This document shows positions 9,779-52,206 of a stretch of 64,000 nucleotides of DNA, one piece after another. The notes below the pieces were generated by a model. The model was not told where the DNA came from. It did not search any database and saw only the letters and a list, made by a program, of their open reading frames with translations. Numbering within the stretch: position 1 is the stretch's first letter; the number at the start of each line of letters is the position of its first letter. The position numbers and the translations under genes are program-made. The DNA comes from a virus, in IMG/VR virus record IMGVR_UViG_3300027985_001685, positions 124,001 to 188,000 of that record. One strand, given 5' to 3'.

Positions 9779-10030
9779 ATGGATATTTTAATGAACCATA
9801 ATATAGCATACCCTTGCTATGTTTTAATTAAAGAAGAGGAAAACACTCTTATAGCAAATAGCGATGGTGTTGGTAAAGTTGCCTTACATCATCCAGATTC
9901 CTTTTTAAAGAAGGGGATGAAGGTTTACTTTAATAATTTAAAAAAAAGTTGTGTTGTCATAAATGGTGAATCATTTTTTGTGTTAAAGCAAGAAGACATC
10001 TATTTATACGAAGAGGCTGGACATGAGTAA
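9779..10030 (+). CDS. GroES-like co-chaperonin (divergent)
   Basis: Probable co-chaperonin that caps the GroEL chamber. It is 83 residues, slightly shorter than the usual about 95. The C-terminal half follows the GroES pattern well (LKKGMKVYFNNL, then INGESFFVLKQEDIYLY, matching the known VKVGDKVLF ... GEEYLILREDDIL pattern). The first strand fits YVLIKEEE. The mobile-loop region is short and diverged. AGGAGAATTA precedes the ATG, and a strong promoter lies just upstream. It overlaps groEL by eight bases, the usual groES-groEL order. Context and pattern together make this assignment likely. Confidence 0.75.
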   Translation: MDILMNHNIAYPCYVLIKEEENTLIANSDGVGKVALHHPDSFLKKGMKVYFNNLKKSCVVINGESFFVLKQEDIYLYEEAGHE

Positions 10031-11711
10031 GAAAAATGTAAGAACCGCTGAAACAAAAAGTGTTGTATCTCAGGGGCTATGTCTTCTAGAAGATATTGTC
10101 TGTGGAACAATGGGGCCTGGTGGACGAAATGTTATTCTTGAAAATTCATCTGGCGCACCAGTGATTACAAAAGATGGTGTAACTGTTGCACAATCAGTAC
10201 CTGACCTTGAAGACAATGAGTTGAATTTAATTGTTAGAATCATTAAAGAGTCAGCTGAAAAAACAAATAGAGAAGCTGGTGATGGAACTACTACTAGTAT
10301 TTGTTTAACACATGCAATTTATAATGCTGGTGTGGACATTATTGAGTCAAACAAAATAAAAAATGTTAATAAGCTAAAGAAAGAAATCAAGGATGGTGTT
10401 GATCTAATTATTCAGAGTATTGATAAATACTTTAAAGTCGACATCGCAAACTTGCCTGATGAAGAAAAGAAAAAGTATCTTTATAGCATTGCAAATATCT
10501 CTTTAAACGGAGATAAAAAGTATGCTTCATTAATTTCAGATGTAGTAGCAAAAGCTGGACTAACCTCAATGATTGCAGTTGAGGACGGTAAAGGGTACAC
10601 AGATGAGTTAATTAAGATTGAAGGGATGCAGTTTAATAAAGGTTGGGTTTCACCTTACTTTAAACAGACTGAACAACAAAAAGAGATTTCATTAGATAAT
10701 CCATATATTTTTATGACAACTTTTGATCTCACAAGTACTGGGCAGTTGGGCCTTTTAGAAAAAGCACTTAACCCATTAATTGCTGGTGGCAAACAACTTT
10801 TAATCATTGCTCCAAATGTGAGTGGTGGACTTCTTAATAGTCTGATTGCAAACAATAAACAAAAGAATTTAGTAAACTGTGCTGTATTTGCTCCTTATTA
10901 TGGGAACGTAAGAAAAGAGTTTATGCAAGATTTGGCAATTAGTACAGGTGCTACAATTATTGATCAAGCTGAAGGACACTCTCTTTCTAAGGTTGAAGTT
11001 AGCCATTTTGGTAAATGTGAAAGGGCAATTGTAACTGCTACTGGAACGTCAATTATTGGTGGAGCTGGAGATACTTCAAAGGTTAAAGCTAGAATTAACT
11101 TCTTAAAAGAGGAAGCTAAAAAAGTTAACCCCCATAATGACTTAGATAAGGTTCACGAAAGATTGGCTAAAATTGAAGGTGGAGCTTATGTTATACAGCT
11201 TGCTAATCAATCGTATATTGAAGGGTTAGAGCTTAAGCATAGAATTGAGGATGCTGTAAATGCATGTAAAGGTGCTCTTGAGGGTGGTATTGTTGCAGGT
11301 GGAGGAGCTACTTTGTTCGCCGCAGCTAAAACATCATTAGATTGTTCAATTCCTGGTCACCTTATTTTATCTAAAGCTTGTGAAGCCCCGATGGAAAAGA
11401 TACTCTATAATATTGGTGTTGATTTTTCAGATAGAAATGAGTTGTTACAATTCTTTTTAGATAAGCGCATTAGGTCATGGGAAAAAGAAAAAGAGTCTAA
11501 GCCTTTTTCAAGTACTTATACAATTTCCGAAAAGAACGATAAAGGTGTTAAGTTAAATGATGACTGTTTTGCTACAGGTGTTGTAGATCCAGCAAAAGTA
11601 ACTAAACATGCTCTTTCTAATGCAGCTTCAGTTTCAGCTACTTTATTAACTACTAATGGTATTATTTCCTCTATTCCTGAGGTAAATCCAATGCCATTTT
11701 CAATGTATTAG
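10023..11711 (+). CDS. groEL: GroEL-type chaperonin (Hsp60)
   Basis: ATP-dependent chaperonin that folds proteins inside a ring chamber. It is 562 residues (E. coli GroEL has 548). The nucleotide motif GDGTTT is at residues 86-91, exactly as in E. coli, with TMGPGGRNVI near 29-38 and ITKDGVTVA near 48. The catalytic Asp region appears as RIEDAVNACKGALEGG followed by GIVAGGG. The C-terminus ends PMPFSMY and lacks the Gly-Gly-Met tail. It overlaps the GroES-like gene. Phage chaperonins are known mainly from large phages; this one probably folds phage capsid, tail or replication proteins and may work with or without host GroES. Confidence 0.95.
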   Translation: MSKKNVRTAETKSVVSQGLCLLEDIVCGTMGPGGRNVILENSSGAPVITKDGVTVAQSVPDLEDNELNLIVRIIKESAEKTNREAGDGTTTSICLTHAIYNAGVDIIESNKIKNVNKLKKEIKDGVDLIIQSIDKYFKVDIANLPDEEKKKYLYSIANISLNGDKKYASLISDVVAKAGLTSMIAVEDGKGYTDELIKIEGMQFNKGWVSPYFKQTEQQKEISLDNPYIFMTTFDLTSTGQLGLLEKALNPLIAGGKQLLIIAPNVSGGLLNSLIANNKQKNLVNCAVFAPYYGNVRKEFMQDLAISTGATIIDQAEGHSLSKVEVSHFGKCERAIVTATGTSIIGGAGDTSKVKARINFLKEEAKKVNPHNDLDKVHERLAKIEGGAYVIQLANQSYIEGLELKHRIEDAVNACKGALEGGIVAGGGATLFAAAKTSLDCSIPGHLILSKACEAPMEKILYNIGVDFSDRNELLQFFLDKRIRSWEKEKESKPFSSTYTISEKNDKGVKLNDDCFATGVVDPAKVTKHALSNAASVSATLLTTNGIISSIPEVNPMPFSMY

Positions 11712-12859: not shown

Positions 12860-12873
12860 GATAAATGTAAACA

Positions 12874-12902
12874 TTTAGATATTTTTTACTTTTTAGTATT
12901 AT
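12874..12902 (+). promoter_or_regulatory. possible promoter of the structured RNA block
   Basis: TTTAGA (12874-12879), a 17-base spacer and TATTAT (12897-12902) resemble a sigma70 promoter with a weak -35 box. Transcription would begin near 12909, just inside the outer arm of the structured region. The surrounding sequence is very AT-rich, so chance is possible. Confidence 0.4.
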
Positions 12903-12903
12903 G

Positions 12904-13117
12904 TAAATTACATTCCCCTGAAACAGGGTAAGTGATTCCTTCAGGAATGCTTGTACGGGTATCACTAATCGATCACCCTCCCCAGCATTCCACCAGGAAT
13001 CACATCCCCTCCCGTCTATAGACGGGAAGGTTTCAGGGGATAGTAATTTACCAGGTGGCCAGATCCAAAACCGGTACCCGAGACGGATACCTGCTGGCCG
13101 CCTGACCCTTTTAGGGT
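12904..13117 (+). ncRNA. strongly structured RNA or leader, no recognised family
   Basis: Non-coding stretch that folds into two domains. Domain 1: TAAATTAC (12904-12911) with GTAATTTA (13043-13050); TCCCCTGAAAC (12914-12924) with GTTTCAGGGGA (13030-13040); GTGATTCCT (12932-12940) with AGGAATCAC (12995-13003); GGAATGCT (12944-12951) with AGCATTCC (12984-12991); and a CCCGTC-TATA-GACGGG hairpin (13011-13026). Domain 2: CAGGTGGCCAG (13052-13062) with CTGGCCGCCTG (13094-13104), and an ACCCT-TTT-AGGGT hairpin (13105-13117). The region is much more GC-rich than its surroundings. It may be a separate RNA or the leader of the zinc-finger gene at 13139. Confidence 0.65.
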
Positions 13118-13138
13118 TAATAGAAACTGGAGTTTTTT

Positions 13139-14619: not shown

Positions 14620-14639
14620 TTGTTTCAACTATCTATAAT
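14609..14639 (+). promoter_or_regulatory. possible promoter of small RNA 14.65-14.81 kb
   Basis: A perfect TATAAT (14634-14639) lies in TCTATAATTAAGTA, the same 14 bases that include the -10 box of the putative small RNA at 47.2 kb. The best -35 match is TTGTAA (14609-14614) with a long 19-base spacer, so the -35 element is weak. The shared extended -10 context is the main argument. Confidence 0.5.
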
Positions 14640-14645
14640 TAAGTA

Positions 14646-14808
14646 GATTTTATTATTTCTTTTACCAGCTAACTTTCAGGGACCAGGAATCCTTTCAGAT
14701 CATGATTGTGAACAATCTCTCCTGAATGAATCCCAGGACCCTTCAGTAGCTGGTAAAAATTGTAAACTTGGTCAGGAGGAGGTAACTCCTCCTGAAAAAG
14801 TTTTTTTC
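14646..14808 (+). ncRNA. putative small RNA with long interrupted stem and terminator
   Basis: From just after the TATAAT box to a terminator, about 160 bases. A closing stem TTTTACCAGCT (14660-14670) pairs with AGCTGGTAAAA (14748-14758). Inside it GGG, CC and GG steps pair across regularly spaced A-A mismatches (14679-14687 with 14733-14741), then TTCAG with CTGAA, and a GATTGT-GA-ACAATC tip hairpin (14704-14717). A terminator hairpin follows. There is no reading frame of note. It is not a family I recognise. Confidence 0.6.
14764..14808 (+). terminator. rho-independent terminator
   Basis: TCAGGAGGAG (14772-14781) and CTCCTCCTGA (14786-14795) form a perfect 10-bp stem with a GTAA tetraloop, extended by AAACTT/AAGTTT and followed by a T-run. 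The 5' arm includes a perfect Shine-Dalgarno-like GGAGGAGG buried in the stem. Confidence 0.75.
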
Positions 14809-14840
14809 TATTTTAAAAAAAATCTGTAGTTATATTTAAT

Positions 14841-15005
14841 GACAGTAAGAAGTATCTTCTTATTTTTAAATACTTACTACTGTCAAACATGTTAACGTAA
14901 ACATCTCATCCTTCACTAATCGTTCGGAAGGAGATGTTAACGTTTACATGTTTGGATCCTTCAGGATGTCTTCAGTCATCCTGGAGGATCACCCCTTGGG
15001 GTGAT
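14841..15005 (+). other. stack of four hairpins upstream of the ubiquitin-like operon
   Basis: Non-coding stretch with four consecutive hairpins: GACAGTA...TACTGTC (14841-14884); a 22-bp helix from CAAACATGT (14884-14892) to ACATGTTTG (14946-14954) with single T-T and A-A mismatches; GATCCTTCAGGATG with CATCCTGGAGGATC (14955-14990); and ATCACCCC-TT-GGGGTGAT (14988-15005). With the small RNA before it this fills the largest gene-free gap of the window (14620-15066). A 7-bp hairpin GACACAA-TG-TTGTGTC (15024-15039) follows just before the ribosome binding site. It may be a leader RNA, a separate RNA or protein-binding sites. Confidence 0.6.
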
Positions 15006-15066
15006 TATAATTAGTTATTTTATGACACAATGTTGTGTCTATATTTGTTGCTATAAGGAGGAAACT

Positions 15067-15240
15067 ATGGCACGTGTACTTTATTTTGAAGGTCAAGAAC
15101 TTCCACTACAAGACGGTATGACTATTGATGAAGCTAAAGAATGGGCTCAGGTAGTATTTCCAGGTCTTGAATCTGCTGAAGGCTATGAAGATGAAGACGG
15201 AAACTACGTCTTCACAAAGAAAGCCGGAACTAAAGGGTAG
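15067..15240 (+). CDS. ubiquitin-like protein (PRTRC protein C / Prok_Ub type)
   Basis: 57-residue protein matching my knowledge of PRTRC system protein C, the prokaryotic ubiquitin-like (beta-grasp) family. It has an N-terminal hairpin MARVLYFEGQELPL, a central helix (TIDEAKEWAQVVFP), an acidic strand and a C-terminus ending GTKG, the typical end for this family. AAGGAGG six bases upstream fixes ATG 15067. It lies at the head of an operon that also encodes E2-like, JAB and E1-like proteins, the set expected to attach it to and remove it from targets. Targets are unknown. Confidence 0.82.
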   Translation: MARVLYFEGQELPLQDGMTIDEAKEWAQVVFPGLESAEGYEDEDGNYVFTKKAGTKG

Positions 15241-15315
15241 TTAATACCCTTAGACATTTATTTACTTTATAGCCTTTTGTATTAAAGGATTTTAAATTAT
15301 TAATTAGGAGGGACT

Positions 15316-15591
15316 ATGTCATTAGGTCTAACTTTATTTAATTCATTAAAAGAGAGTAAGGAGCTAGAAAACATTATCCCTCTAGAGTACTCAAAAGTAG
15401 TGGCAGATCTGGCCGATGTGTCAGACTGCCAACAACTAGAAAAATTAATGGGTGAAATAACCCTATTCGATATAATCGATAAATATAAAGATAGTGAATC
15501 ATCTCTAGTCTTTCAAAAGAAAAGAATGAGAGACATCTATCATAGGCTGCTAAGGCTTGAAGCCGTTCCAGGAATCTGTAATTTTATATAA
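15316..15591 (+). CDS. hypothetical protein in conjugation operon, 91 aa
   Basis: Unrecognised 91-residue helical protein behind TTAGGAGG. It is acidic with one or two helical hairpins and two Cys residues that are not paired as a metal site. It is conserved in position between the ubiquitin-like and the E2-like genes only as far as this window shows. It could be an accessory factor or a target of the system; nothing in the sequence says which. Confidence 0.7.
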   Translation: MSLGLTLFNSLKESKELENIIPLEYSKVVADLADVSDCQQLEKLMGEITLFDIIDKYKDSESSLVFQKKRMRDIYHRLLRLEAVPGICNFI

Positions 15592-15603
15592 TAGGAGAAT
15601 AAT

Positions 15604-16386
15604 ATGTTAAATAACGTTTTGAGTAAAGATGTACAAAATAAATTGTTAATCTCTTATTATTATTCATTTGGAAGATCGCTAGGTTTGTTATCTGCAAAAA
15701 GAGGAATAAAAAGCGATGCTTTATGGAAAATCATTAAAGCTTTAATGAATAAAGCTTTGCCCTTTATTCCTGTATCTAAAGAAAGAAACTCTGATTGTAT
15801 GTTAATATCCATACAGAAAGGTCTAACTGGATACATGGTCTCATTAAGAGCTATGATAAGAAATTTAATTTCACAAAGAGATCCTACTTATTGGAGGAGT
15901 GAGGATAGAACTCTACCAAATAAAAGCCACATGATTACTGGCCCAGATAAGCTTCATGTATTAAGTAAAAAACTTCTTAAGTTCATGTATGGTGATGATT
16001 ACAAGAAACATTTTCCAACTCTTATCATCCCTAACTTTTTAACTCAGACGGAGACATGGACTTCTGCTCTTCGAGCTGATTTTGTAAATGTATATAAGGT
16101 TCTTAATGAACCATGCATTAAGGGCTTACAAAAGATAAATACAGATGAAATGAAACAAAATCTGAATGTAGGAATAAAAAAAGCCTATATTTCAATGATT
16201 CGGCATTCGTTACTTCAAGCATTAAGGCATGATACTCATGCAGTAATAAAGGATGCTAATAATAATTTTAAAAATGTTACTGAAACTACAGCTGAATTAG
16301 CAGAGGATGGTGAAGGAAAGGTTAGTGCTTTTCCCAATCAACTAAGATCTAGCTATTACCTATATACAGACAGGAGTACAACATGA
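15604..16386 (+). CDS. hypothetical protein in conjugation operon, 260 aa
   Basis: Unrecognised 260-residue protein, mostly helical and basic. AGGAGAATAAT precedes the ATG. It overlaps the E2-like gene by four bases (ATGA), so it is translated with the cassette. Bacterial PRTRC cassettes carry further proteins (named D, E, F and a ParB), and this could be a diverged counterpart, but I see no diagnostic motif. The middle contains a segment rich in Trp, Arg and Asp (RDPTYWRSEDRTLPNK). Confidence 0.7.
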   Translation: MLNNVLSKDVQNKLLISYYYSFGRSLGLLSAKRGIKSDALWKIIKALMNKALPFIPVSKERNSDCMLISIQKGLTGYMVSLRAMIRNLISQRDPTYWRSEDRTLPNKSHMITGPDKLHVLSKKLLKFMYGDDYKKHFPTLIIPNFLTQTETWTSALRADFVNVYKVLNEPCIKGLQKINTDEMKQNLNVGIKKAYISMIRHSLLQALRHDTHAVIKDANNNFKNVTETTAELAEDGEGKVSAFPNQLRSSYYLYTDRSTT

Positions 16387-17117
16387 GTTTATGCAATATT
16401 GAAATAAATGAAAGCTCAGCAATCTTAACATATAAAGAGCACCATAGAATGGCTGCTGTAACTTCTAAGTCAATTGACATTGCTGATTTAGGTAAGGTTC
16501 TGGCGGCTAATGTTGAGATGGATAGTGGACTTATTTATACTCCTCCAACCATGCAAATTAAGAGGTATATGAAGAAAGGTTCTTCAGAAATGGTTTTAAT
16601 TGAAGAAGCTCCAAGAAAACGAAAAATAAAGCATTACGACTGTGGCGAGCTTGAAATTATGCTTCCTAGACTAGTCTATGGAATCCTACATAACTCTCAA
16701 TTGTCTGGAAGATCTGCCTTGAACATGAGAATTGGAACGGTTAAGGGTCCTATAATAACTGGTAAAGAGCCAATTTACCGGTTCTTTTTTCCAAATGTAT
16801 ATGATACTGGAACTATTTGTTGGGGTTATTCAAGAGATAGAAATGAGGATTCCTTAAATTCTATTACTTATGCTTTAGCTTTGATTGAATCTTTTTGGGG
16901 TGGGGTATCTAATAATGATTTATATAGATCTCCATTGGCAGATACAGATAGAATAAAAAGTGACAAGTTAGGTCTTGATTATTGTGACAAGTATTTAAAA
17001 TATATTGCGACACTAGATCAGTATCCAGAGGAGTTTATTCATTCTCCTCTAAGTTCAAAAGTTGGATTTTCAGTAAACAATTTCTGTAGCCTAGTGTTAG
17101 GAAACTCGGGAGAATAG
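16383..17117 (+). CDS. E2-like protein (PRTRC protein B / Prok-E2_D type)
   Basis: 244-residue protein matching PRTRC protein B. The region FFPNVYDTGTICWG (residues 135-148) reads like the active-site stretch of ubiquitin-conjugating enzymes (HPN...GxICL), with Cys146 in the place of the thioester cysteine. The N-terminal part is beta-rich, including a YTPPTMQIKRYM segment typical of the family. It would receive the ubiquitin-like protein from the E1 and pass it to a target. It overlaps the gene before it and is two bases from the JAB gene. Confidence 0.8.
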   Translation: MSLCNIEINESSAILTYKEHHRMAAVTSKSIDIADLGKVLAANVEMDSGLIYTPPTMQIKRYMKKGSSEMVLIEEAPRKRKIKHYDCGELEIMLPRLVYGILHNSQLSGRSALNMRIGTVKGPIITGKEPIYRFFFPNVYDTGTICWGYSRDRNEDSLNSITYALALIESFWGGVSNNDLYRSPLADTDRIKSDKLGLDYCDKYLKYIATLDQYPEEFIHSPLSSKVGFSVNNFCSLVLGNSGE

Positions 17118-17119
17118 TC

Positions 17120-18172
17120 ATGGGAAAAAAAGAAGATTTTTTAAAGTCAGTTATAAACTACCATTGTGGTGAATCAAAAGATACAGTTATTAATCCATTC
17201 TTTAATTATATAGTTCAATCTGACGGTGACTACTATGTAGAAAAGAATTCAATTGGAACTTTTGTTGCGAAAGTTCTTGAAGTAAAAGATGGTGAAAAAT
17301 TACGCCCAGGCCTTCCTGTAGAATACAAGGGGTCCTTTGTAGATTTTTCTCTTCCTAAAATTCCTGAAGATATTTTTTATCAAATTTTAGGCTTTTTTCA
17401 AGCTATTGCTCACGATATGGGTGATTCAGAAGCCTTTATACAAATTTATTATGACAAAACTAATAATGAATATCAGGTTGTAGTACCCAAGCAAACAGTA
17501 TCTAAAGCTTCTGTAAACTATGATAGAGACAAGGATTTACATATTTTATATCCTTCTCGATATATTCTAGTTATGGATATCCACAGCCATAATAGTATGC
17601 CTGCTTTCTTTTCTGGAACTGATAATAGAGATGAAAAGTGTACAAGGTTTTATGGTGTTTTAGGTAAGGTTTGCAGTGATCAAATTGAAGAAAAATATAG
17701 ATTTGTTTTAAAAGGAAGAGAAGTTCTTTTAAATAGATCTGACATTTTTGATGTTAAAGAAAAAACTGCTGTATTTCCCACTAATTGGAAAGATTCAATA
17801 AGTAAGTATACCCAGCCCGCTGTGACAGCTGGTCCAACTCGTTATCCAGGAACATACAACTTTCCTACTACAGGAAGAGAAACATTTGACGACCTTAATG
17901 ATTATTGGCCAAATGACAGTCTAGTTAACCCTAATACTGGGGAGCTAAGTTCGTATGATGGATATAATGATAGTTATGATTCATCGAATATGAAGTATTA
18001 TGAAGGTAGTGATCAAATTGTAGACATGATCAAATATACAAATAACGATAATTGGACAGATCGTGATTATAGAAAAGTAATTTCAAATATCTTCTCATAT
18101 TATTATGAGGAAGCCCCTGATGTTTTTCACGAATATATGGAAGTTTATTGTGAAGAACCTGACGGAGAATAG
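17120..18172 (+). CDS. JAB/MPN metallopeptidase (PRTRC protein A type)
   Basis: 350-residue protein with a complete JAMM motif, HxHx7SxxD: His155, His157, Ser165 and Asp168 in HSHNSMPAFFSGTD. A candidate catalytic Glu lies in SEAFIQIYYD (near 104). JAB peptidases remove or mature ubiquitin-like proteins using zinc. The C-terminal 120 residues (about 215-350) are an acidic, Tyr/Asn/Asp-rich extension without known fold. The position between E2-like and E1-like genes is the standard order. Activity is likely because all metal ligands are present. Confidence 0.88.
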   Translation: MGKKEDFLKSVINYHCGESKDTVINPFFNYIVQSDGDYYVEKNSIGTFVAKVLEVKDGEKLRPGLPVEYKGSFVDFSLPKIPEDIFYQILGFFQAIAHDMGDSEAFIQIYYDKTNNEYQVVVPKQTVSKASVNYDRDKDLHILYPSRYILVMDIHSHNSMPAFFSGTDNRDEKCTRFYGVLGKVCSDQIEEKYRFVLKGREVLLNRSDIFDVKEKTAVFPTNWKDSISKYTQPAVTAGPTRYPGTYNFPTTGRETFDDLNDYWPNDSLVNPNTGELSSYDGYNDSYDSSNMKYYEGSDQIVDMIKYTNNDNWTDRDYRKVISNIFSYYYEEAPDVFHEYMEVYCEEPDGE

Positions 18173-18184
18173 AAAGAGGTAAAA

Positions 18185-19051
18185 ATGCAAGAGTTAAGTT
18201 CAAAAATAGAGGTAACTGTGGCTAGACCCGTTGCTCCTGAAGTTAAAATACCTGTTAAACCTTCTACTTCTACTGTTGCTGTGGCTCCTATAAGAACAAA
18301 ACTAGGAGAGTCTTTAGGCTATGATAGAGAAGAAGATGGGATGCCTGCTCTAACAGTTTTTGTTGTTGGTTTAGGCGGGACAGGGGGATATGTTTTACGA
18401 GATCTGGCTCGATATGCTTACTATCTTAGAGTAAGTAAGAAAGCCGAACTCAATATCGTTCTTTATGATGGTGATACAGTAGAAGAAAAGAATCTTTTAA
18501 GACAGAACTTTATCACTAGCGATCAAGGCAAGTATAAGGCTGAGGTTTTAGCAAAAAGATATTCTGCAGCTTTTGGTGTAGATATAAAGTTTGTAAATGA
18601 ATACTTGTCTACTAAAAATATGGTTTCTCTTAATTATGGTAGATCCATTATAATTTCTTGTACTGACAGTAATGATGCTAGAAGGTTAATTCATAATGAA
18701 ATTCTCCGCTCTAGAGTTGGACTTGTCTCTTGGATAGATTCTGGAAATGAAAAACGTAGTGGTCAAGTTATTCTTGGGGAAAAGAATAGAGGTTATTCTG
18801 GCTTCCAGACATTTAAGTCTTGTATCGAGCTCTTTCCTGAACTAGCTGATCCTGCTAACGATCCGGTAGATACTCGTTCTTGTGCAGATGTTGGAATTGA
18901 TGAATCACAGAATTTATTTATCAATTCTATGGCAGCCATGATGGTAATGAATTTTGTTAGAGTTTTAGTTGAGAATGAATGGACCAATTTAAATGGTGTT
19001 TCTTTTGGGATTAATGGTGTTTCAACGCCAATTTTTATAGATAATAAGTAA
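18185..19051 (+). CDS. ThiF/E1-like adenylyltransferase (PRTRC ThiF type)
   Basis: 288-residue E1-like enzyme expected to adenylate the C-terminus of the ubiquitin-like protein. The Rossmann motif VVGLGGTGGYVL is at residues 60-71, an acidic YDGD near 94-97, the family motif NLLRQNFITSDQGKYKAE at 103-120 and the strand SWIDSGNEKRSGQVILGE at 182-199. Cys233 in VDTRSCADVG is the best candidate for the thioester cysteine. The pattern agrees closely with PRTRC ThiF proteins. AGAGGTAAAA precedes the ATG. A Pro/Val-rich N-terminal linker of about 50 residues is extra. Confidence 0.92.
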   Translation: MQELSSKIEVTVARPVAPEVKIPVKPSTSTVAVAPIRTKLGESLGYDREEDGMPALTVFVVGLGGTGGYVLRDLARYAYYLRVSKKAELNIVLYDGDTVEEKNLLRQNFITSDQGKYKAEVLAKRYSAAFGVDIKFVNEYLSTKNMVSLNYGRSIIISCTDSNDARRLIHNEILRSRVGLVSWIDSGNEKRSGQVILGEKNRGYSGFQTFKSCIELFPELADPANDPVDTRSCADVGIDESQNLFINSMAAMMVMNFVRVLVENEWTNLNGVSFGINGVSTPIFIDNK

Positions 19052-19064
19052 GGTGGAGTTTCGT

Positions 19065-19643
19065 ATGTCATATATAAGGCCTTTAGTTTTTGAAGACCCT
19101 TTAGAGTCTGAGACAAGAAATGATATTTCTATCCTAGAAAATCTTGGTGATGAATCATTTCTTTATGATATTTTTTATGACAGTAGGATTGGCGGGGTAT
19201 GTCATCACTATGCCTTTAATGGATTTAATGTTGGAATCTATTTTAGATCTAATGGAGTTATATGGACAAATGCAGTTTGTTTTTTTGATAGAAATTATTA
19301 TTATCTAGGAATGAATGCGGATGGGACACTGAATACTTCACCAGTTAGTCGTTATGGAATACCATCAAGATTACATCTGACTTTACTTGTAGATGGAGAT
19401 CCAGTAGAGTTTTTTCAAAATCAAAACTGTACTGTTCACTTCTTGCCTGGATCCTATAATTTAGATTTTTTAAAAAATTATACAGAAGAAACTGACCTAG
19501 ACCTTGAAGAAGAGGATAGAGTTTCAGCAGAAAAGAAACTTCAATCATCTCTCTTGGCTTATTTTTTAAATATAGCTGAATATTTTGGTGGAGTTATCGA
19601 TGGGCAAGATGTATCGGATTCAGACAACCTCACAGAGTTTTAA
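19065..19643 (+). CDS. hypothetical protein between E1 and reverse transcriptase, 192 aa
   Basis: Unrecognised 192-residue protein starting at ATG 19065 behind GGTGGAG, the same ribosome binding site that precedes the reverse transcriptase. It is acidic, rich in aromatic residues (FFDRNYYYLGMNADG) and ends with a helical, very acidic segment (TEETDLDLEEEDRVSAEKK). Its last 44 bases overlap the reverse transcriptase gene, linking it tightly to both systems. It is an obvious candidate for an effector, adaptor or target. Confidence 0.72.
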   Translation: MSYIRPLVFEDPLESETRNDISILENLGDESFLYDIFYDSRIGGVCHHYAFNGFNVGIYFRSNGVIWTNAVCFFDRNYYYLGMNADGTLNTSPVSRYGIPSRLHLTLLVDGDPVEFFQNQNCTVHFLPGSYNLDFLKNYTEETDLDLEEEDRVSAEKKLQSSLLAYFLNIAEYFGGVIDGQDVSDSDNLTEF

Positions 19644-20475
19644 TAATTGTTTTTATATTAAAAGTACTGTTTTAAAAAAGAATGGTAAAAATAGAGTTAT
19701 CTATGCCCCTTCTGATAAATTAAAAGAGTATCAAAAAGAAATTTCTAACATTCTTGAAAGTGGTTTTTCTGACATCTTAAATAGTAGTCATATAATGGGA
19801 TTTGTTAAACAAAAATCTATTGTCGATAATGCAACTAAGCATTTAGGTAAAGATTGGGTCATTAATATCGATATTAAAGATTTTTTTCCTAATATAAAAG
19901 GTCAGTATGTTTATGATCTTATCTCTAAGAGGTCTATTATCTTTTCAGACTTTATATCTAAGTATAATAGCAGCTTGATAGATGTAGTAAGACTTTTAAC
20001 ATTAAAGGACAAATTAATTCAGGGAAGCCCAGCTAGTCCTATAGTGGCAAATTTAATCGGTGCTGCGATGATTGACAATAAGGTTAAAGACTTTTTAGAT
20101 TGCTATGCGCTTGATGATTTAGATTATACTCGTTATGCGGATGATCTTACAATCTCTTTCAATTCTGAGTTGAAAAAGCATGAACTAAAAGATATAATAC
20201 ACTCTTTAAAAAAAAGTTTAGACCCTTTTCAGTTCACAAAGAAAAAGACGATTATAAGTTCTAGATACGATAGACAAGAGGTGACTGGTATTACAGTAAA
20301 TAATACTAGATGCAATCTTGGAAGAGAAAAAAGAAATTCTTTAAGAGGTTGGATTCATTCGGTTATTCAGAGTGGTAGATCAATTAAAGATGATCAAAGA
20401 TTAATGGGACACTTGTCTTATTTAAGATATGTTAATCCCGAAAGTTATAATAGATTAATAAAGAAATACAGTTAA
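19600..20475 (+). CDS. retron-type reverse transcriptase
   Basis: 291-residue RNA-directed DNA polymerase. Motifs in order: fingers GFVKQKSIVDNATKH (67-81), which contains the retron NAxxH signature; catalytic block A INIDIKDFFPNI with Asp91; QGSPASPIVANL (141-152); catalytic RYADDLTISF with YADD at 179-182; and the retron VTG triplet in RQEVTGITVN (228-230). The C-terminal LSYLRYVNPE thumb segment is also typical. It is a stand-alone RT without fused domain. ATG 19600 is chosen because GGTGGAG lies six bases before it; an in-frame TTG at 19585 is less likely. Retron RTs make multicopy single-stranded DNA from a partner RNA; the partner is not obvious here. Confidence 0.9.
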   Translation: MGKMYRIQTTSQSFNNCFYIKSTVLKKNGKNRVIYAPSDKLKEYQKEISNILESGFSDILNSSHIMGFVKQKSIVDNATKHLGKDWVINIDIKDFFPNIKGQYVYDLISKRSIIFSDFISKYNSSLIDVVRLLTLKDKLIQGSPASPIVANLIGAAMIDNKVKDFLDCYALDDLDYTRYADDLTISFNSELKKHELKDIIHSLKKSLDPFQFTKKKTIISSRYDRQEVTGITVNNTRCNLGREKRNSLRGWIHSVIQSGRSIKDDQRLMGHLSYLRYVNPESYNRLIKKYS

Positions 20476-20485
20476 GGAGTATTTT

Positions 20486-20812
20486 ATGCAAGTTACAGAT
20501 GCAAGTTTTTTTCCAGTTAATAATGGCCCAACAGTTGCTTTGGGGCAAGTTATTTTAGATAAAGTCTTGAAGCTTAATGTAAAGATCATGAATGGTAAAA
20601 ATGGTCTCTGGGTTGCTTTCCCTTCAAAATTAAGTCAAAAAGATAATAAATATTATTCGGATTTTAATTTTATTGATAAAGATGCACATGCTGATTTTTC
20701 TACAGCTGTTCTATCTGCTTATCATACAACTAATTCTCAAGGAAATGGTAGTCCTTTAAGTAGAAACAGTAACTCTGAAGCAGAGATTATGCAGGATGAC
20801 TTACCATTTTAA
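20486..20812 (+). CDS. SpoVG-like nucleic-acid-binding protein with SSB-like tail
   Basis: 108-residue protein. Residues 1-85 follow the SpoVG pattern (VTDASFFPV, LDKVLKLNVKIMNGKNGLW, VAFPSK, then FSTAVLSAY), a small domain known to bind DNA and RNA in bacteria. The C-terminus is a flexible Ser/Asn-rich linker ending QDDLPF, like the acidic tip of single-strand-binding proteins that recruits partners. TAAGGAG precedes the ATG. Lying 10 bases after the reverse transcriptase and followed by a structured RNA, it may bind the RT's RNA or DNA product. Confidence 0.78.
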   Translation: MQVTDASFFPVNNGPTVALGQVILDKVLKLNVKIMNGKNGLWVAFPSKLSQKDNKYYSDFNFIDKDAHADFSTAVLSAYHTTNSQGNGSPLSRNSNSEAEIMQDDLPF

Positions 20813-22472: not shown

Positions 22473-22833
22473 AGAAGGCTGCGTCTTTCTTGAAATCGCA
22501 AAAGCCCTTGACGAAGAAGGGAAAAGAATGGATTGGGACAATAAACTAGTTATGAAGCTAGGTTTGCCTGATCTAGTAGAGATTTTAGTTAAATTAAAAA
22601 CTAAAGCTTTTCCAGCTAAGCTATTTCACAAAATTGATAATGGCCCATCCTCTACGTTGGAAGTTTCTGAAGGAAACAAAGCTGGAACTTATAGATGGTT
22701 CGTATCAAAAGACGGATCTTCTATGCCAATTTTCTTAGATGCAAAAGATATGTATCTAATTAGTGTATTACTTGAAAATGCTATTTCAGTAACTCAAGCT
22801 TGGGTTCCGGTAGCAAAGCCAAGGAATGCATAA
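22381..22833 (+). CDS. Whirly/PC4-like single-strand-binding protein (putative)
   Basis: 150-residue protein whose residues 32-145 follow the Whirly-domain layout I know from plants: GCVFLEIAKAL, then RMDWDNKLVMKLGLPDLVEIL (the YDW...K...LS...L block), KLFHK, a strand-turn-strand STLEVSEGNKAGTYRWFV, and a last PIFLDAKDMYLI ... AWVP. Such domains bind single-stranded DNA. AGAAGGAGAACAAA fixes ATG 22381, which means a real 92-base out-of-frame overlap with the previous gene. No other SSB was found, so it may be the phage SSB. Assignment is by pattern only. Confidence 0.62.
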   Translation: MLYPCPVRFHKRTVQLQLSLSLPRLEDGRTKEGCVFLEIAKALDEEGKRMDWDNKLVMKLGLPDLVEILVKLKTKAFPAKLFHKIDNGPSSTLEVSEGNKAGTYRWFVSKDGSSMPIFLDAKDMYLISVLLENAISVTQAWVPVAKPRNA

Positions 22834-22849
22834 AATGAAAGGAGAACAA

Positions 22850-23464
22850 ATGGAAGAGATTGCTGCGGCTGCGGAAGGAATGTTGCCTGCAAACTACCTA
22901 CAAGGGTTTGACTTGTTTGGTGGTGGAACAGAGACAAAAACACGAAGCCTTATTGTTACTGGTGAGGTTGGAGAGTCTTTGGTGTCTAGCATAACTAAGA
23001 ATTTATTATCTCTTAGTGCTGAAGACCCTGAGATTCCAATTACTATGTACATCAACACCTATGGTGGATCTGCTTATGACATGTTTGCGATTTATGATGT
23101 AATGAATTTTGTAGAAACTCCAATTTATACAGTTGGATATGGTAAGGTAATGTCTGCCGGAGTTCTCCTTTTAGCTGCTGGAGAGCCAGGCCATAGATTT
23201 TTAACCCCCAATGCTAGTGTAATGATACACAGAATGAAGGGTGGAGTTTATGGTGGTGTCGCAGATTGGGAGTCAGAAAAAGAACATTTTGCTGACTTAG
23301 AAAAAAGAATGGCCGCTCTCTTAAAAAGTCATTCTAAGCTTACTCAAGCGCAACTTAAAAGCTATTTAGATAATCAAAACATTTATTTAAATGCTAAAGA
23401 TGCTAAAAAGTATGGTATTGTTGACCACGTTAAAGGTACAATGCCAAAGATCCTTAAAGGATAA
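22850..23464 (+). CDS. ClpP-like serine protease
   Basis: 204-residue member of the ClpP family. Ser102 in YGKVMSAGVLLLAAG and His127 in SVMIHRMKGG match the catalytic Ser and His. At the expected Asp position (aligned with the DRFLSA block of E. coli ClpP) there is Asn177 in QNIYLNAKDA, with Asp174 close by, so the triad may be altered. ATG 22850 follows AAAGGAGAACAA; an upstream ATG at 22826 overlaps the previous gene. Phages use ClpP-like enzymes for head maturation or protein turnover. No Clp ATPase is in the window. Confidence 0.88.
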   Translation: MEEIAAAAEGMLPANYLQGFDLFGGGTETKTRSLIVTGEVGESLVSSITKNLLSLSAEDPEIPITMYINTYGGSAYDMFAIYDVMNFVETPIYTVGYGKVMSAGVLLLAAGEPGHRFLTPNASVMIHRMKGGVYGGVADWESEKEHFADLEKRMAALLKSHSKLTQAQLKSYLDNQNIYLNAKDAKKYGIVDHVKGTMPKILKG

Positions 23465-27336: not shown

Positions 27337-28398
27337 ATGGCTAAAAAGAAATCTAAACCTGATTTAACTGAAGGTGGAGATAAAGCATTGGATATTGCTC
27401 TTGCTGCTATTGAAAAGCAGTTTGGTAAAGGTTCAGTAATGCGTATGAGTGCAGAAGACTGCTATGAAGATGTAGAATGTTGGGGTACAGGAATCTTAGG
27501 TATTGACCTAGAGGCTGGAAAAGCTATCCCTAAAGGACGTATTATCGAAATTTTTGGGCCTGAATCTTCAGGTAAGACAACTCTAACTCTTCATATTGCG
27601 TCTAATGTTCAACAACAAGGTGGGAAAGTTGCCTTTGTTGATGCAGAACATGCTTTGGACGTTACTTATGCTACAAAGCTAGGAGTTGATGTTCCTAGTA
27701 TGATTATTTCTCAGCCTGATTGTGGTGAACAAGCACTTGAAATTACTGATATGTTGGTACGTTCTGGAGCTGTGGATCTTCTTATTGTCGACTCTGTTGC
27801 AGCCCTTACTCCTCGTGCAGAGCTTGAAGGAGATATGGGGGATTCGCATATGGGACTTCAGGCTCGTCTTATGAGTCAGGCTTTGCGTAAATTGACCGGT
27901 TCTATTTCTCGTTCCAATTGTACTGTTATTTTCATCAATCAATTGCGTATGAAAATTGGTGTGATGTTTGGAAATCCTGAAACGACAACAGGTGGAAATG
28001 CTCTTAAATTTTATGCATCACAAAGATATGATGTAAGGCCAGCTGGATGGATTAAAGATGGAGAGCAGATTATAGGCGCAAAGTCTAAGGTTAAAATTAT
28101 TAAGAATAAGGTTGCCCCTCCTTTTGGAACAGTAGAGTTAGACGTAGATTTTGGTTACGGTTTCTCTAAAACATCTGATCTTCTTAATCTTGGGCTTAAG
28201 TATGAGATAATAAATAAAGCTGGTGCTTGGATCTCTTATAATGGCTCAAATATAGGTCAAGGAAGTGAAAAAGCTAAGCAGTATTTAGCTGAAAACCCTG
28301 ATGTTTATAATGAGATAAAAGAGAAGATTATCCGTGCTAAAAGTGGTCTTCCACCAGAGAATGTAGATGAAGAAACAGGGGAAATAATAGATGTATAA
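27337..28398 (+). CDS. recA: RecA recombinase
   Basis: Bacterial-type RecA, 353 residues, the same length as E. coli RecA. The Walker A motif GPESSGKTT is at 74-82, the N-terminal oligomerisation part [18 protein letters not shown] at 16-33, [15 protein letters not shown] near 145, and L2-region [15 protein letters not shown] near 210. It drives strand exchange in recombination-dependent replication or repair. AAGGAGG precedes the ATG. It overlaps the HU-like gene by eight bases. Phage RecA of bacterial type, rather than UvsX, is less common. Confidence 0.97.
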
Positions 28399-32493: not shown

Positions 32494-35172
32494 TTGAGTG
32501 ATTTTATTCATATTCATACACATACTGACCTATCTCTTTTAGATGGTCAGATGAAGACAAAAGATCTTATAGCGAGATGTAAAGAGCTTGGAATGAGTAA
32601 GATCGCTGTGACAAATCATGGGAACATGATTAATATGCCAAAAATAATTAATGAAGCCGCAGCAGAAGGGATACAGGTTATTCCTGGCTGCGAGTTTTAT
32701 ATTACATGGGACTATGCTTGTACATTAAAGGATACTGACCATGATCAAAGATATCATTTTATAGCATTAGCGACTAATACAACTGGTTATAAAAATCTTT
32801 CAGCACTATGCTCTATAGGTCATGTTGTAGGTAAATATAATAGACCAAGAGTAGATAAAGAGCTTATTGAAAAATATAAAGAAGGACTGATTTTTACTAC
32901 GGCATGTATCAGCGGTGTTATTGGTAGAAGACTTAAAGAAGGTATCTCGGAAGATCAAATCCTTGAAGAGCTATCTTGGTTAAAGGAAGTTCTTGATGGT
33001 CAAATATATTTTGAACTTCAAAGACATCCAGATGTTGAGTTTGAAAAAGAAGCTAATGATCTTACGATTAAAGCCTCAAAACTTTATAATATTCCTTTAA
33101 TTGTGGGTGGAGATGCCCACTATGCATCACCTAATGACCATGAGGCTTGGTCTATTATGATGAAACTAGCTACTGGTGGTAAGATGGGAGTTTCAATCCC
33201 AAATGACTACTATTTAAAAAGTGAAGAAGAGATGAGAAAGCTCTTCTCAGATGTCCCTGAAGCCATAGAAAATGCTATTGCTCTAGGGAAACGATGTGAA
33301 CCAGTTGAGTTTAATAGAAAGTATATCTTACCTCAATATTCTGAAAATGATCCTTCGATAGATTTAAGAAATCTTATGGAAGAAGGGTTTCAGTATAGAG
33401 TTTCAAAGGGCGAGATTCCAGAAGAGAAGATGCAAGAATATAAAGATAGAATGGAAATGGAATACAAAGTAATTTGTGATATGGGGTTTCCAGGATATTT
33501 TTTAATCGTCGCAGACTTTTTGGTATGGTGTAAGAAGAATAAGATTCGAGTTGGTGAAGGCAGAGGCTCAGCTGCTGGCAGTTTAGTCTGCTGGTTAATG
33601 AGAATTACTGAAGTAGATTCAATTAAGTATGGCTTAATGTTCGAGAGATTTTTAAATCCATTTCGAGTTACAATGCCAGATATTGATTGTGATATCCAAG
33701 ATGATAAAAGAGACTTTGTAAAGAAGTATTTAGAAGAAAGGTATGGAGAAGACAAGGTTGCTTCTATTATGACCTTGGGTACAATGGCTGCAAAAGGAGC
33801 CATTAGAGATGTCTGCAGAATGTTAGGAATTGATATTCAAGCAGCTAATACTTTAGCTAAAGCAATACCAGACGGGAAACGTGGAAAGAATGTTTTTCTT
33901 AATACTATTGGTGATCCAAAAAGTGATAGCTATTCTGCTGATTTTATGGCTGTAGTAAATTCTAAGCCAGAATTTAAAAAGGCTTTTGAGATTGCCAGAA
34001 AGTTAGAAAAGACAACAAGGTCATTCGGTGTACATGCTTCTGGGTATGTGATTTCAGATGACAAGCCTTTAATGTATCATTGCCCTTTAATGTTAGATAA
34101 ATTTAAGAATCCTACAACACAATATACTATGGATATTTGTGAATTAGTTGGATTAATTAAGTTTGACCTTTTGGGTCTTTCTACTGAGAGGATTATAAGT
34201 GATACAGAATCCTTTATTCATAAGCATACGCCTAATTTCAATATTGATGAAGTTCCTCTAGACGATGAAGAGACTTATAAATTAATGGCTACTGGTAATT
34301 CTGCTGGATTATTTCAACTAGGTGGAACCTCTGGCTTTATTTCTGTTACTACGAAGTTAAGCCCTAGTAATATCGAAGAAATGGCTGACGTTTTAAGCCT
34401 TTATCGACCCGGGCCTCTTGATAATGGATTCATAGAGTATTACTATGAATCTAAAACATCAGGTAAGATCAAATATATGATTGAAGTTGAAGAAGAGTCA
34501 ATGATGGAAAAAGTCATTAATATTCTTAAACCAACTTATGGTGTTATTATCTATCAAGAACAGCTCATGGCTTTAACTCAGGTTCTAGCTGGCTTCAGTC
34601 TTGCCGATGCTGACTTAATGAGAAGGGCTATGGGTAAAAAAGATTTAGAAAAGATGAAAAAAGAAGAGTCTTCTTTTATTTCTGGATGTTTGAAGAATGG
34701 TTTATCAGAAAAATCTGCCAAAGAAGTTTGGGCTATGTTCTTAAAGTTTAGTGATTATGGTTTTAATAAATCACATGCTGTAGCTTATGCTTTAAAGGCT
34801 TATAAGACGGCCTATCTAAAAGCTCACTATCCTGTTGAATTCATGTCAGCTCTATTGACAGAAAGGCAGGGTAAAAGAGATGACACTATTAAGTACTTGA
34901 ATGACTGTAGACATAATGGTTTAACTATTCTGCCTCCTTGTGTTAATGAGAGTGGGCTAGAATATACTCCTGTTACTGAGAGTAAGTCTATTCGTTTTGG
35001 TCTAGGTGCCATAAAAGAATTAGGTGACGTTGCGGTAAGAGTTATTCAAAAAGAAAGAGCTAAAGGTGTCTTTAAAAGCTTCTTTGATTTTATTAAAAGG
35101 ATTAATCTAACTAAAGTCAATTCTGGTAAGTTAAATGCACTTATTAGAGCTGGTGCACTAGATTCATTATAG
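32494..35172 (+). CDS. dnaE: DNA polymerase III alpha subunit, N-terminal portion (split)
   Basis: Replicative polymerase of the DnaE type, 892 residues, lacking the usual C-terminal part, which is encoded by the next gene. The PHP domain starts with HIHTHTDLSLLDG (residues 5-17). Catalytic Asp residues are in MPDIDCDIQDD near 395 and KFDLLGLSTERII near 555. Other C-family blocks are GEGRGSAAGSLVCW and GFNKSHAVAYA. The start is TTG behind GCGAGG; no ATG fits. The frame stops after NALIRAGALDSL, exactly at the end of the helix-hairpin-helix block. Confidence 0.95.
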   Translation: MSDFIHIHTHTDLSLLDGQMKTKDLIARCKELGMSKIAVTNHGNMINMPKIINEAAAEGIQVIPGCEFYITWDYACTLKDTDHDQRYHFIALATNTTGYKNLSALCSIGHVVGKYNRPRVDKELIEKYKEGLIFTTACISGVIGRRLKEGISEDQILEELSWLKEVLDGQIYFELQRHPDVEFEKEANDLTIKASKLYNIPLIVGGDAHYASPNDHEAWSIMMKLATGGKMGVSIPNDYYLKSEEEMRKLFSDVPEAIENAIALGKRCEPVEFNRKYILPQYSENDPSIDLRNLMEEGFQYRVSKGEIPEEKMQEYKDRMEMEYKVICDMGFPGYFLIVADFLVWCKKNKIRVGEGRGSAAGSLVCWLMRITEVDSIKYGLMFERFLNPFRVTMPDIDCDIQDDKRDFVKKYLEERYGEDKVASIMTLGTMAAKGAIRDVCRMLGIDIQAANTLAKAIPDGKRGKNVFLNTIGDPKSDSYSADFMAVVNSKPEFKKAFEIARKLEKTTRSFGVHASGYVISDDKPLMYHCPLMLDKFKNPTTQYTMDICELVGLIKFDLLGLSTERIISDTESFIHKHTPNFNIDEVPLDDEETYKLMATGNSAGLFQLGGTSGFISVTTKLSPSNIEEMADVLSLYRPGPLDNGFIEYYYESKTSGKIKYMIEVEEESMMEKVINILKPTYGVIIYQEQLMALTQVLAGFSLADADLMRRAMGKKDLEKMKKEESSFISGCLKNGLSEKSAKEVWAMFLKFSDYGFNKSHAVAYALKAYKTAYLKAHYPVEFMSALLTERQGKRDDTIKYLNDCRHNGLTILPPCVNESGLEYTPVTESKSIRFGLGAIKELGDVAVRVIQKERAKGVFKSFFDFIKRINLTKVNSGKLNALIRAGALDSL

Positions 35173-49790: not shown

Positions 49791-50861
49791 ATGTGTAATC
49801 TGTCTCTCTGTAAAAAAGAATTAATGATATATCTGAAAACTACAGAGTTTTGCAACCTTAACTGTCATCACTGTTATAACGGTGAAGAAGGTGTCAAATT
49901 AAGCAACTTTTTAAATACATTTAATAAAGATAAAACGGTTGAGTTTATCAAACAAATGGATGGTAAATTTGACCTAATAGACATCTCTTTTCATGGTGGA
50001 GAGCCACTTTTGGCAGATCCATTGGATATGTTTTATACCTATACGGCTATTAATGAAATGGAAACAGACATTAGATGGGGTATTCAAAGTAACCTATCAA
50101 TGCAACTAGATGATGACAGAAAACAGCTGCTGACTATTCTTGCTAAAAATGGTGGCATGGGAACATCTTGGGACTATGATTTAAGATTTCATACACGAGA
50201 AATATATGATACATGGCGTGAAAATGTTGATTTTATTAATGATATCGAAGGGGCAAGTAATACCTTAATTGTCTCTATGTCTAAACGTCTTGTGACAGAG
50301 ACAAAAGCTATAGATATTATTAAGTTCGCCAAATCAATAGGGTTTGATGCAATTCTATTTGAAAGAATTACAAAGTCAGGAAACGCTTTGAATTTTAATA
50401 GAATAATTCCCACAAGTGCTGAAGTGGATAAATACACATTAGATATGTATAATGACACTGTGGAAACAGGAATATATACTGATATAAAGAATAATTATCT
50501 ATCTTCTATCCTCTATCCTTATGTGTTTGGTTCTTTTACAGGCTGTAGAAGTCGAGAATGCGCCCAGAGAGTAATGACAATTAATGCTAATGGATCTATC
50601 TCTGGATGCCCTAACTCTGCTCATAAGGTTATTTTTGGCTCAATTAATAACTCGTTTGAAGATGTCCTAAAAGCTCCTCTTAGAAAAAATGAGATTATAA
50701 AAGAGCAAGTAAGTAAGTGTATGCAGTGTGAATATCTAGACCGCTGTAATGGTGACTGCTATCAACTTACTTATGACGATGAGTGTTATTCTCCAAAGTC
50801 TCTATATAAACTGTTAGAGAAATTACCAAGTCCAGCACTTTTAAAAAAGATAGTATTATAG
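49791..50861 (+). CDS. radical SAM/SPASM protein 1 of the cluster
   Basis: 356-residue radical SAM enzyme. The cluster motif CNLNCHHCYN (CxxxCxxC) is at residues 21-30, followed by DISFHGGEPLLA. The C-terminal SPASM domain has CRSRECAQRVMTINANG, GCPNSAHK and KCMQCEYLDRCNGDC, giving auxiliary Fe-S sites. SPASM proteins mostly modify peptides or proteins (thioether links, oxidations, epimerisation). The Cys-His-tailed gene follows 12 bases downstream, making it the nearest candidate substrate. Confidence 0.9.
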   Translation: MCNLSLCKKELMIYLKTTEFCNLNCHHCYNGEEGVKLSNFLNTFNKDKTVEFIKQMDGKFDLIDISFHGGEPLLADPLDMFYTYTAINEMETDIRWGIQSNLSMQLDDDRKQLLTILAKNGGMGTSWDYDLRFHTREIYDTWRENVDFINDIEGASNTLIVSMSKRLVTETKAIDIIKFAKSIGFDAILFERITKSGNALNFNRIIPTSAEVDKYTLDMYNDTVETGIYTDIKNNYLSSILYPYVFGSFTGCRSRECAQRVMTINANGSISGCPNSAHKVIFGSINNSFEDVLKAPLRKNEIIKEQVSKCMQCEYLDRCNGDCYQLTYDDECYSPKSLYKLLEKLPSPALLKKIVL

Positions 50862-50873
50862 CGGAGTAAGATC

Positions 50874-51554
50874 ATGACTATTTCTAGAGAAAAAATTTCA
50901 AAAGCAAGAACGGTACAAGAGTTCTTAAATAATGTCACAAACTATGTAAAGACTCACTATTTATGGCACAGACAGTCCTATCCTACAGGTGTTTACTTTC
51001 CTTACCAATGGTTAGACTATTCATCTAATGTGCTAGGCCCAACTACATCAGAACTAGATACTGAAGCTGTTTCTGCTCAGGACTTTGCTCAAAGCTTTGA
51101 GTCATGGTGCAAGACATATACAAGAGCCAGAAAATTAAGACATGTTCTCTATAAAAGACAGTCAGGGAAGTACTATGTAGATACTCCACTTTTAGTAGAA
51201 TATGATAGTACAAACTATGCTCTATTTAGTCCAAGTGCTAATATTGTCAATGAAGGAACAGCCTATGCTGTAGGAACTACAGGGTGGAGTTCTAGTGCAC
51301 AATGGAGAGTTGTGTCTGGATTAAAAACAGGACTTAATACTGCTGCCTACGCAGGAATAGAAGCAATCAATGAGGCTGCCGGAGTAGATGAAGATATTCC
51401 AGCCTATATATCTAGCTTCAATACTTTAATTTCAAACCTTAAAAGTAACTGGGTAACAAATCGCGAGACCTTAACAACAAGTGTATACTATTACTGCCAT
51501 ACTAATTGTTATAGTAAATGTCATAGTAACTGTCACTCTAGGAGTAGAAGATGA
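50874..51554 (+). CDS. protein with C-terminal Cys-His tetrapeptide repeat, 226 aa
   Basis: 226-residue protein with a soluble Tyr/Ser-rich body and a striking end: after SVYYY come four repeats of four residues each starting with Cys, CHTNCYSKCHSNCHSRSRR (residues 208-226), with His after three of the Cys. Nothing else in the body binds metal. Sitting between radical SAM genes, the repeat looks like a core peptide to be modified or a metal-binding tip. GCGGAGTAAGATC precedes the ATG. It overlaps the next gene by four bases. Confidence 0.78.
   Translation: MTISREKISKARTVQEFLNNVTNYVKTHYLWHRQSYPTGVYFPYQWLDYSSNVLGPTTSELDTEAVSAQDFAQSFESWCKTYTRARKLRHVLYKRQSGKYYVDTPLLVEYDSTNYALFSPSANIVNEGTAYAVGTTGWSSSAQWRVVSGLKTGLNTAAYAGIEAINEAAGVDEDIPAYISSFNTLISNLKSNWVTNRETLTTSVYYYCHTNCYSKCHSNCHSRSRR
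51495..51539 (+). repeat. 12-base tandem repeat encoding the Cys-His motif
   Basis: Three consecutive 12-base units plus a 9-base partial unit, consensus TGYYATAGTAAN, encode the C-x-x-x repeats of the Cys-His protein. The units differ at several positions, so the repeat is not a recent slippage product. Confidence 0.7.
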
Positions 51555-52198: not shown

Positions 52199-52206
52199 GA
52201 GCAAAC

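Follow-up and report, generated by a model that had tools for sequence, protein, structure and literature searches.

Bacterial ubiquitin-like systems studied so far mostly tag proteins in anti-phage defense, and bacteria attach ubiquitin-like proteins (Ubls) to phage tails by means of Bil. Another bacterial gene set, operon type 6d, was defined by Iyer, Burroughs and Aravind in 2006 (PMC1779556). It comprises a small Ubl with a C-terminal glycine, a second conserved protein that is alpha-helical, an E2 of the Prok-E2_D type, a JAB peptidase with an extra N-terminal domain, and a stand-alone E1. Here we describe a cassette in a 64,000-nucleotide stretch of viral DNA (the window; positions 124,001 to 188,000 of the IMG/VR virus record IMGVR_UViG_3300027985_001685, which totals 188,132 bases), whose core parts and their order are those of operon type 6d, that is, of the Ubl-E2-JAB-E1 core of PRTRC. 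The Ubl with its C-terminal glycine, the cysteine-bearing E2, the JAB with an extra N-terminal domain, and the separate E1 are all present, and the slot of the alpha-helical protein is occupied by a 260-amino-acid (aa) protein for which homology was not detected. We conclude that the cassette is probably a working, reversible ubiquitin-like conjugation system encoded by a phage, because of the family and fold matches of its parts, their invariant catalytic residues, the tandem Ubl precursors found beside JAMM peptidases, and a gene order that has been kept.

Genes elsewhere in the record encode a terminase and a portal, major head protein, tail sheath, and baseplate of the myovirus type, so the replicon is a phage; the nearest relatives of the terminase, at ~30% identity, are in Moorella phage MTATph1, Acinetobacter phage ME3, and Bacillus phage KLEB27-3. 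A first reading of the window from its letters alone (the sequence-only reading) had proposed that a phage carries, within 4 kb, a Ubl ending in GTKG, an E2-like protein with Cys146, a JAB peptidase with all JAMM ligands, and an E1/ThiF protein with Cys233. We recovered all four genes on the plus strand exactly where it had placed them and with the residues it had named (Table 1), and the structural genes and terminase in the same record bear out the phage carrier. The 4-kb set stood as an operon; however, its limit at 19051 did not, and the operon continues through genes for a 196-aa protein, a retron-like reverse transcriptase (RT) that overlaps the 196-aa gene and had been overlooked, and a SpoVG/SSB-like protein. 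The whole forms a single tight run on the plus strand (15067-20812), with gaps of at most 75 bases and overlaps at 16383-16386 and 19600-19643.

Table 1. The cassette, its leader, and the genes that follow it, in window positions
Feature	Position	Strand	Basis
Hairpin-rich leader 5' of the Ubl gene	14620-15066	+	RNA fold z = -11.4 versus dinucleotide shuffles
Ubl modifier, 57 aa, C terminus GTKG (mature form)	15067-15240	+	Family matches, beta-grasp model
Small cassette protein, 91 aa, hydrophobic C-terminal tail ...GICNFI	15316-15591	+	C-terminal aromatic + I/V pattern
260-aa protein, slot of the type 6d alpha-helical protein (PRTRC_F slot)	15604-16386	+	Position, gene order
E2-like conjugating enzyme, Prok-E2_D/PRTRC_B-like, Cys146	16383-17117	+	PF14460, model, conserved Cys
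JAB/JAMM metallopeptidase, PRTRC_A-like, Tyr/Asn/Asp-rich C-terminal extension	17120-18172	+	TIGR03735, JAMM residues
E1-like ThiF-fold activating enzyme, Cys233	18185-19051	+	PF00899, TIGR03736
196-aa protein	19053-19643	+	Slot of HNH nuclease gene in two related phages
Retron-like RT, overlaps preceding gene	19600-20475	+	PF00078, retron/PADLOC models, motifs
SpoVG-like protein, SSB-like acidic tail (DDLPF)	20486-20812	+	PF04026, 1e-9

We identified the parts from their fold, their family, and their conserved residues taken jointly. The E1, a single ThiF module of 288 aa, matched ThiF at E = 8e-21 and PRTRC_ThiF at E = 8e-41, and a profile built from five relatives found eukaryotic ubiquitin E1s as its best solved relatives (yeast Uba1, 7e-13). 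The JAB protein matched PRTRC_A at E = 5e-14, and the E2 matched Prok-E2_D at E = 2e-4, which falls narrowly short of the curated cut-off. Almost all matches to the AlphaFold model of the E2 (predicted local distance difference test, pLDDT, 75) were eukaryotic ubiquitin-conjugating enzymes, the best at E = 0.02 and probability 0.80 (Foldseek). A ribosome-binding site precedes the start ATG of the Ubl gene at 15067. Within the Ubl family, 18 of the 41 aligned members matched Prok_Ub (PF14454, best 9e-28) and PRTRC_C (best 2e-32), and the final glycine (G57) was invariant in all 41. The Ubl model (pLDDT 88) showed a beta-beta-alpha-beta-beta arrangement, the beta-grasp, and matched protein G-type and ubiquitin structures at template modeling (TM) scores of about 0.57-0.63. 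We thus observed both folds that the sequence-only reading had anticipated, a beta-grasp for the Ubl and an E2 fold for the 244-aa protein, and matches to the families that it had named (PF14454, PF14460, and ThiF), the Ubl through its family and not singly. Sequence profiles of the Ubl and the E2 gave nothing convincing against solved structures.

A scan of IMG/VR with the single E1 protein returned no relatives; these were found instead by a profile scan, which gave 80 loci. Over the IMG/VR loci and cultured phages, the E2, JAB, and E1 profiles matched 82, 78, and 88 loci, respectively. About two dozen distinct cassettes lie on phage or viral contigs, most of them 100-340 kb and a few shorter, and the cultured carriers are Salmonella phage Arash, Vibrio phages D69, D148, and D181, Bacillus phage KLEB27-3, and Acinetobacter phage ME3. 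Across cassettes, the Ubl gene comes first, followed by those for the two partners and then by the E2, JAB, and E1 genes. Residues C233, G62/G64/G65/G67, D95, D97, N103, R106, Q107, K118, and D161 of the E1 and the JAMM residues E104, H155, H157, S165, and D168 were invariant in 24 of 24 phage cassettes, as was C146 of the E2 in 23 of 23 phage sequences. In a tree of E1 proteins, the phage sequences occupied several deep branches, separate from the proteobacterial PRTRC group; judging by this depth, neutral drift would have erased the catalytic residues, yet they are invariant. Because about two dozen diverged phages share the cassette, it represents a class carried by phages rather than one isolated capture.

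Here, phages themselves hold complete cascades, some with polyubiquitin-like genes, whose active sites are preserved across deep divergence. If active, this would be, to our knowledge, the first bacterial virus with a full ubiquitin-like cascade, and the cultured phages would offer a tractable setting for the uncharacterized type 6d/PRTRC family, in which viral protein tagging can be tested. A search of the open-access literature, without subscription papers and preprints, found no description of E1/E2/Ubl cassettes encoded by phages, and a 2021 survey of jumbo phages has no entry for ThiF or JAB.

Tandem Ubl repeats occur in eight lineages: six repeats in loci L024-L027, five in L079, four in KLEB27-3, three in D69, and two in L021, L039, L072, and L090. 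Every repeat ends in GxKG and is followed by the next repeat or by a short tail, as in KLEB27-3 (four repeats, then MPRIVVK) and L024-L027 (six repeats, then ARFTKLVIKLA); at the KLEB27-3 repeat junction, ...AGVKG is directly followed by MARTVKYG.... In other cassettes, the Ubl is single and extends past the last glycine by one to several residues, and the Ubl of the window is a single copy ending exactly at that glycine. A JAMM peptidase is present in each cassette with a repeat or extended precursor, suggesting that it is the natural precursor-processing enzyme. Head-to-tail repeats ending in glycine, a short C-terminal tail, and, in KLEB27-3, a methionine at the start of the next repeat are reminiscent of eukaryotic polyubiquitin genes; however, the phage expansion is unrelated to these, and the window has one mature copy.

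Individual cassettes showed further variations. In ME3, the Ubl ends in GNKAA in place of GxKG, and the JAB gene (L178 8992-12102) is interrupted, in the manner of a homing intron, by about 2 kb that contain a tRNA and small open reading frames (ORFs) and fall precisely on the HxH of the JAMM motif. The E1 of D69 (L003 7890-8870) is annotated too short, with a start at 8115; a non-standard start codon is likely, because an in-frame GCGGTG nucleotide-binding motif lies upstream without an ATG. An apparent Ubl-JAB fusion, in which one ORF matches both profiles, was observed in the bacterial relatives L099, L100, L103, and L105 (Alicyclobacillus, Rubrobacteraceae).

Several features distinguish the phage cassettes from operon type 6d. 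They reside on large phages of the lytic type, have an extra small protein with a hydrophobic tail and a partner protein without detectable homology, and are followed by a retron-like RT in about a third of cases. They also include poly-Ubl precursors, which are described for type 6e, with an inactive E2 (PMC1779556). The kinship to PRTRC put forward in the sequence-only reading holds in that homologues of A (JAB), B (E2), C (Ubl), and ThiF occur in the same order (NCBIfam TIGR03734-03742); however, the cassette is not PRTRC proper, and models of ParB and proteins E and F were negative. ParB (TIGR03734) was found neither in the window genome nor in 23 other records, whose contigs may be partial, and proteins E and F (TIGR03741 and TIGR03742) only in three plasmid-like records and in none of the large phages tested. 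In the window, the B and C scores fall below cut-off, and the E1 scores 140 bits against a PRTRC_ThiF cut-off of 144.75. PRTRC-like cassettes are also found in smaller plasmid-like or prophage records, for example Burkholderia phage BgVeeders33. No function of PRTRC was found in the open-access literature searched. BilABCD resembles the phage cassette in uniting a Ubl, an E1, an E2, and a JAMM peptidase in a single operon and in JAMM precursor processing. However, Bil is a host defense, its BilD has two adenylation domains, and its BilB has a CEHH motif (PMC11354881), whereas the window E1 does not have the paired inactive and active adenylation domains. PADLOC models of Bil and CBASS matched only the ThiF fold in the window, and the cassette is neither Bil nor CBASS.

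The two proteins encoded between the Ubl and the E2 had been left unrecognized in the sequence-only reading. By ending pattern and position, both are conserved cassette components. The first is a small protein of about 80-180 aa whose last two residues are an aromatic one and then I or V in 24 of 26 cassettes; YW and YL are the endings in the remaining two. The pattern occurs in ~0.7% of 1,900 background ORFs of at least 150 aa; the 24 include close relatives and so are not all independent. Bacterial relatives encode small proteins in similar positions, some with hydrophobic ends: GYI (L098), TSDFI (L134), and MPVLP in the proteobacterial group, where the MPVLP-ending protein is sometimes fused behind the GTKG of the Ubl. 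The second, adjacent to the small protein, is 200-570 aa long and very divergent. Comparison by hhalign of the 260-aa family with the other phage counterparts and with bacterial PRTRC_F gave no convincing homology, and the PRTRC_F model did not match the 260-aa protein of the window. Furthermore, phmmer found no relatives of the 91-, 196-, and 260-aa proteins among the fetched loci, and a tblastn search of phages with the 196-aa protein was empty. The 91-aa and 260-aa proteins are probably non-catalytic partners. They would most likely select or dock targets, with the conserved hydrophobic C terminus plugging into another cassette protein. For the small tail protein of Arash (L006 1277-1522), the annotation gives 60 aa (gp249c), whereas the ORF spans 81 aa and ends in RSFV.

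For the cascade itself, we propose that the E1 would adenylate the C-terminal glycine of the GTKG modifier with ATP and hold the modifier as a thioester on C233. The modifier would then pass to C146 of the E2 and from there onto amino groups of its targets. Trimming of poly-Ubl or extended precursors, a step unneeded for the mature 57-aa form in the window, would fall to the JAMM peptidase, which would also take the tag off again. We reasoned that the role is most likely intracellular, during infection, in which host or phage proteins may be tagged for takeover or for self-protection of the large replicon rather than for virion building. Several points weigh against such a working system. The 57-aa Ubl alone reaches only E = 0.04 against PRTRC_C, single-sequence searches being below significance, and Foldseek E-values are weak for both the Ubl and E2 models; that of the Ubl (E > 0.3) we ascribe to the protein being so short. 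No conjugate, thioester, or cleavage is reported for any type 6d system in the literature searched, and no E3-like protein was recognized.

Among possible roles, we consider an intracellular one most likely, followed by a virion role and then by a composite with the RT. A virion role would have the phage tag its own virion proteins, or package and inject the enzymes, so that the cassette matters in assembly or in the first minutes of infection. Purified Arash particles yielded 2-5 unique peptides each for Gp246-249 and Gp251, among them homologues of the E1, JAB, and E2 (PMC10585845). Because they were reported in particles, these homologues are made during infection, and GenBank labels those of the E1 (gp246c) and E2 (gp248c) "structural protein". 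Phage lambda gpK/gpI, likewise a phage-encoded JAB and Ubl, act in tail assembly (meeting report PMC12908700; PMC1779556); however, lambda has neither E1 nor E2 there, and its Ubl is found as a domain within a tail protein. Primase, DNA ligase, and ribonucleotide reductase are also among the 116 proteins on the Arash list, whose authors concede that abundant infection proteins co-purify. The numbering of the list is also probably off by one from the GenBank record, although E1, JAB, and E2 are covered under both numberings. The particle data therefore do not show a place in the virion and are weak as evidence of targets. In addition, the window cassette sits in a plus-strand replication and metabolism block, distant from the minus-strand structural genes. 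On balance, we regard a virion role as unlikely.

The RT that follows the cassette is a second, independent puzzle. It matched PF00078 at 9e-19, the retron St85 RT model at 2e-55 (188 bits, below the cut-off of 235 for that model), and PADLOC RT_XIII at 3e-53, and its translation contains the motifs YADD, NAxxH (NATKH), and VTG. A search of 30 cassette records with RVT_1 found an RT in 10, one apiece, each downstream of the E1, on the same strand, and 0-9 kb away. The distance is 6 bases in L029, 0.3 kb in L023 and L028, about 0.6 kb in the window, 0.8 kb in L022, and 1 kb in L019, and reaches 4.6-4.7 kb in L039/L087 and L072 and 9 kb in L052. RT-bearing E1s are scattered on the tree, forcing at least three separate changes in the presence of the RT. 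In L019 and L022, an HNH gene lies between the E1 and the RT, and a SpoVG-like gene follows the RT. A strongly folded, msr/msd-like region (z = -12.7) was observed between the E1 and the RT of L023, directly before the RT; it was the only strong fold of this kind. In the window, the sequence directly upstream of the RT is coding, and no retron non-coding RNA (ncRNA) matched Rfam above threshold.

These observations could be taken to mean that the Ub cassette and the RT form one composite, in which the RT with an ncRNA senses or templates and conjugation is the effector against host defenses or rival phages. The shared operon with overlapping genes in the window, the uniform placement of the RT in all 10 genomes, its scattered distribution on the E1 tree, and the L023 structure are consistent with this idea. 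However, 20 of the 30 cassette records have no RT, and since most cassette phages are without one, the cascade does not need it. Moreover, the longer distances in L039, L052, and L072, the lack of an assignable ncRNA in the window, and a linkage that could stem in part from shared genome layout all argue against a composite, and we consider it improbable. Less probable again is the bolder proposal of a ubiquitin system that large phages run for themselves, equipped with polyubiquitin-type precursors and with subunits dedicated to targeting, and wired to a retron-like RT whose ncRNA (as multicopy single-stranded DNA, msDNA) would control tagging as a weapon or takeover device.

We also considered that the set strips tags to counter Ub-like antiphage systems of the host (CBASS Cap2, Bil); the JAB would be the key part and the remainder a decoy. 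Bil tags phage tails with Ubls, which a phage JAMM peptidase could remove (review PMC11354881); however, a dedicated modifier, an E1 and E2 with invariant catalytic residues, and multi-repeat precursors would then be superfluous, making stripping very improbable. Least probable of all is a sulfur-carrier pathway (a ThiS/MoaD-like thiocarboxylate) in place of conjugation: ThiF-fold E1s do serve sulfur transfer too, but the E2-like enzyme with its invariant cysteine, the JAMM peptidase, the poly-Ubl genes, and the match of the E1 profile to eukaryotic ubiquitin E1s argue otherwise, and we noticed neither a rhodanese or cysteine desulfurase gene nor a thiazole/molybdopterin one in the neighborhood of the cassette, although no genome search was aimed at them.

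Beyond the conjugation cascade, the window contains other folded RNAs and genes. Several long hairpins lie in the leader of the Ubl gene, along with one that resembles a terminator (14772-14795), and an Rfam search of the window gave only sub-threshold matches. A second strongly folded intergenic RNA (12860-13138, z about -9 to -15) consists of a long branched hairpin and a GC-rich hairpin, and matched no Rfam family at the gathering threshold. ClpP is encoded at 22826-23464, 3-4 kb downstream of the cassette; in L019, it precedes the Ubl by about 2 kb. We rejected ClpP as a fixed cassette partner: it was found in only 5 of 20 cassette phages, in two of them far off. Genes for tmRNA lie close downstream of the cassette, RT, and SpoVG-like gene in L019 (12409-12814) and L022 (12273-12726). 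The window also encodes a GroEL-like chaperonin (10023-11711), a RecA-like protein identified by reading its sequence (27337-28398), and a DNA polymerase III alpha-type polymerase with a PHP domain (32494-35172). Finally, radical-SAM/SPASM-like proteins with Cys-rich C termini are encoded at 841-1989 and in a run near the genome end (49791-56174), and this run looks like a peptide-modification locus.

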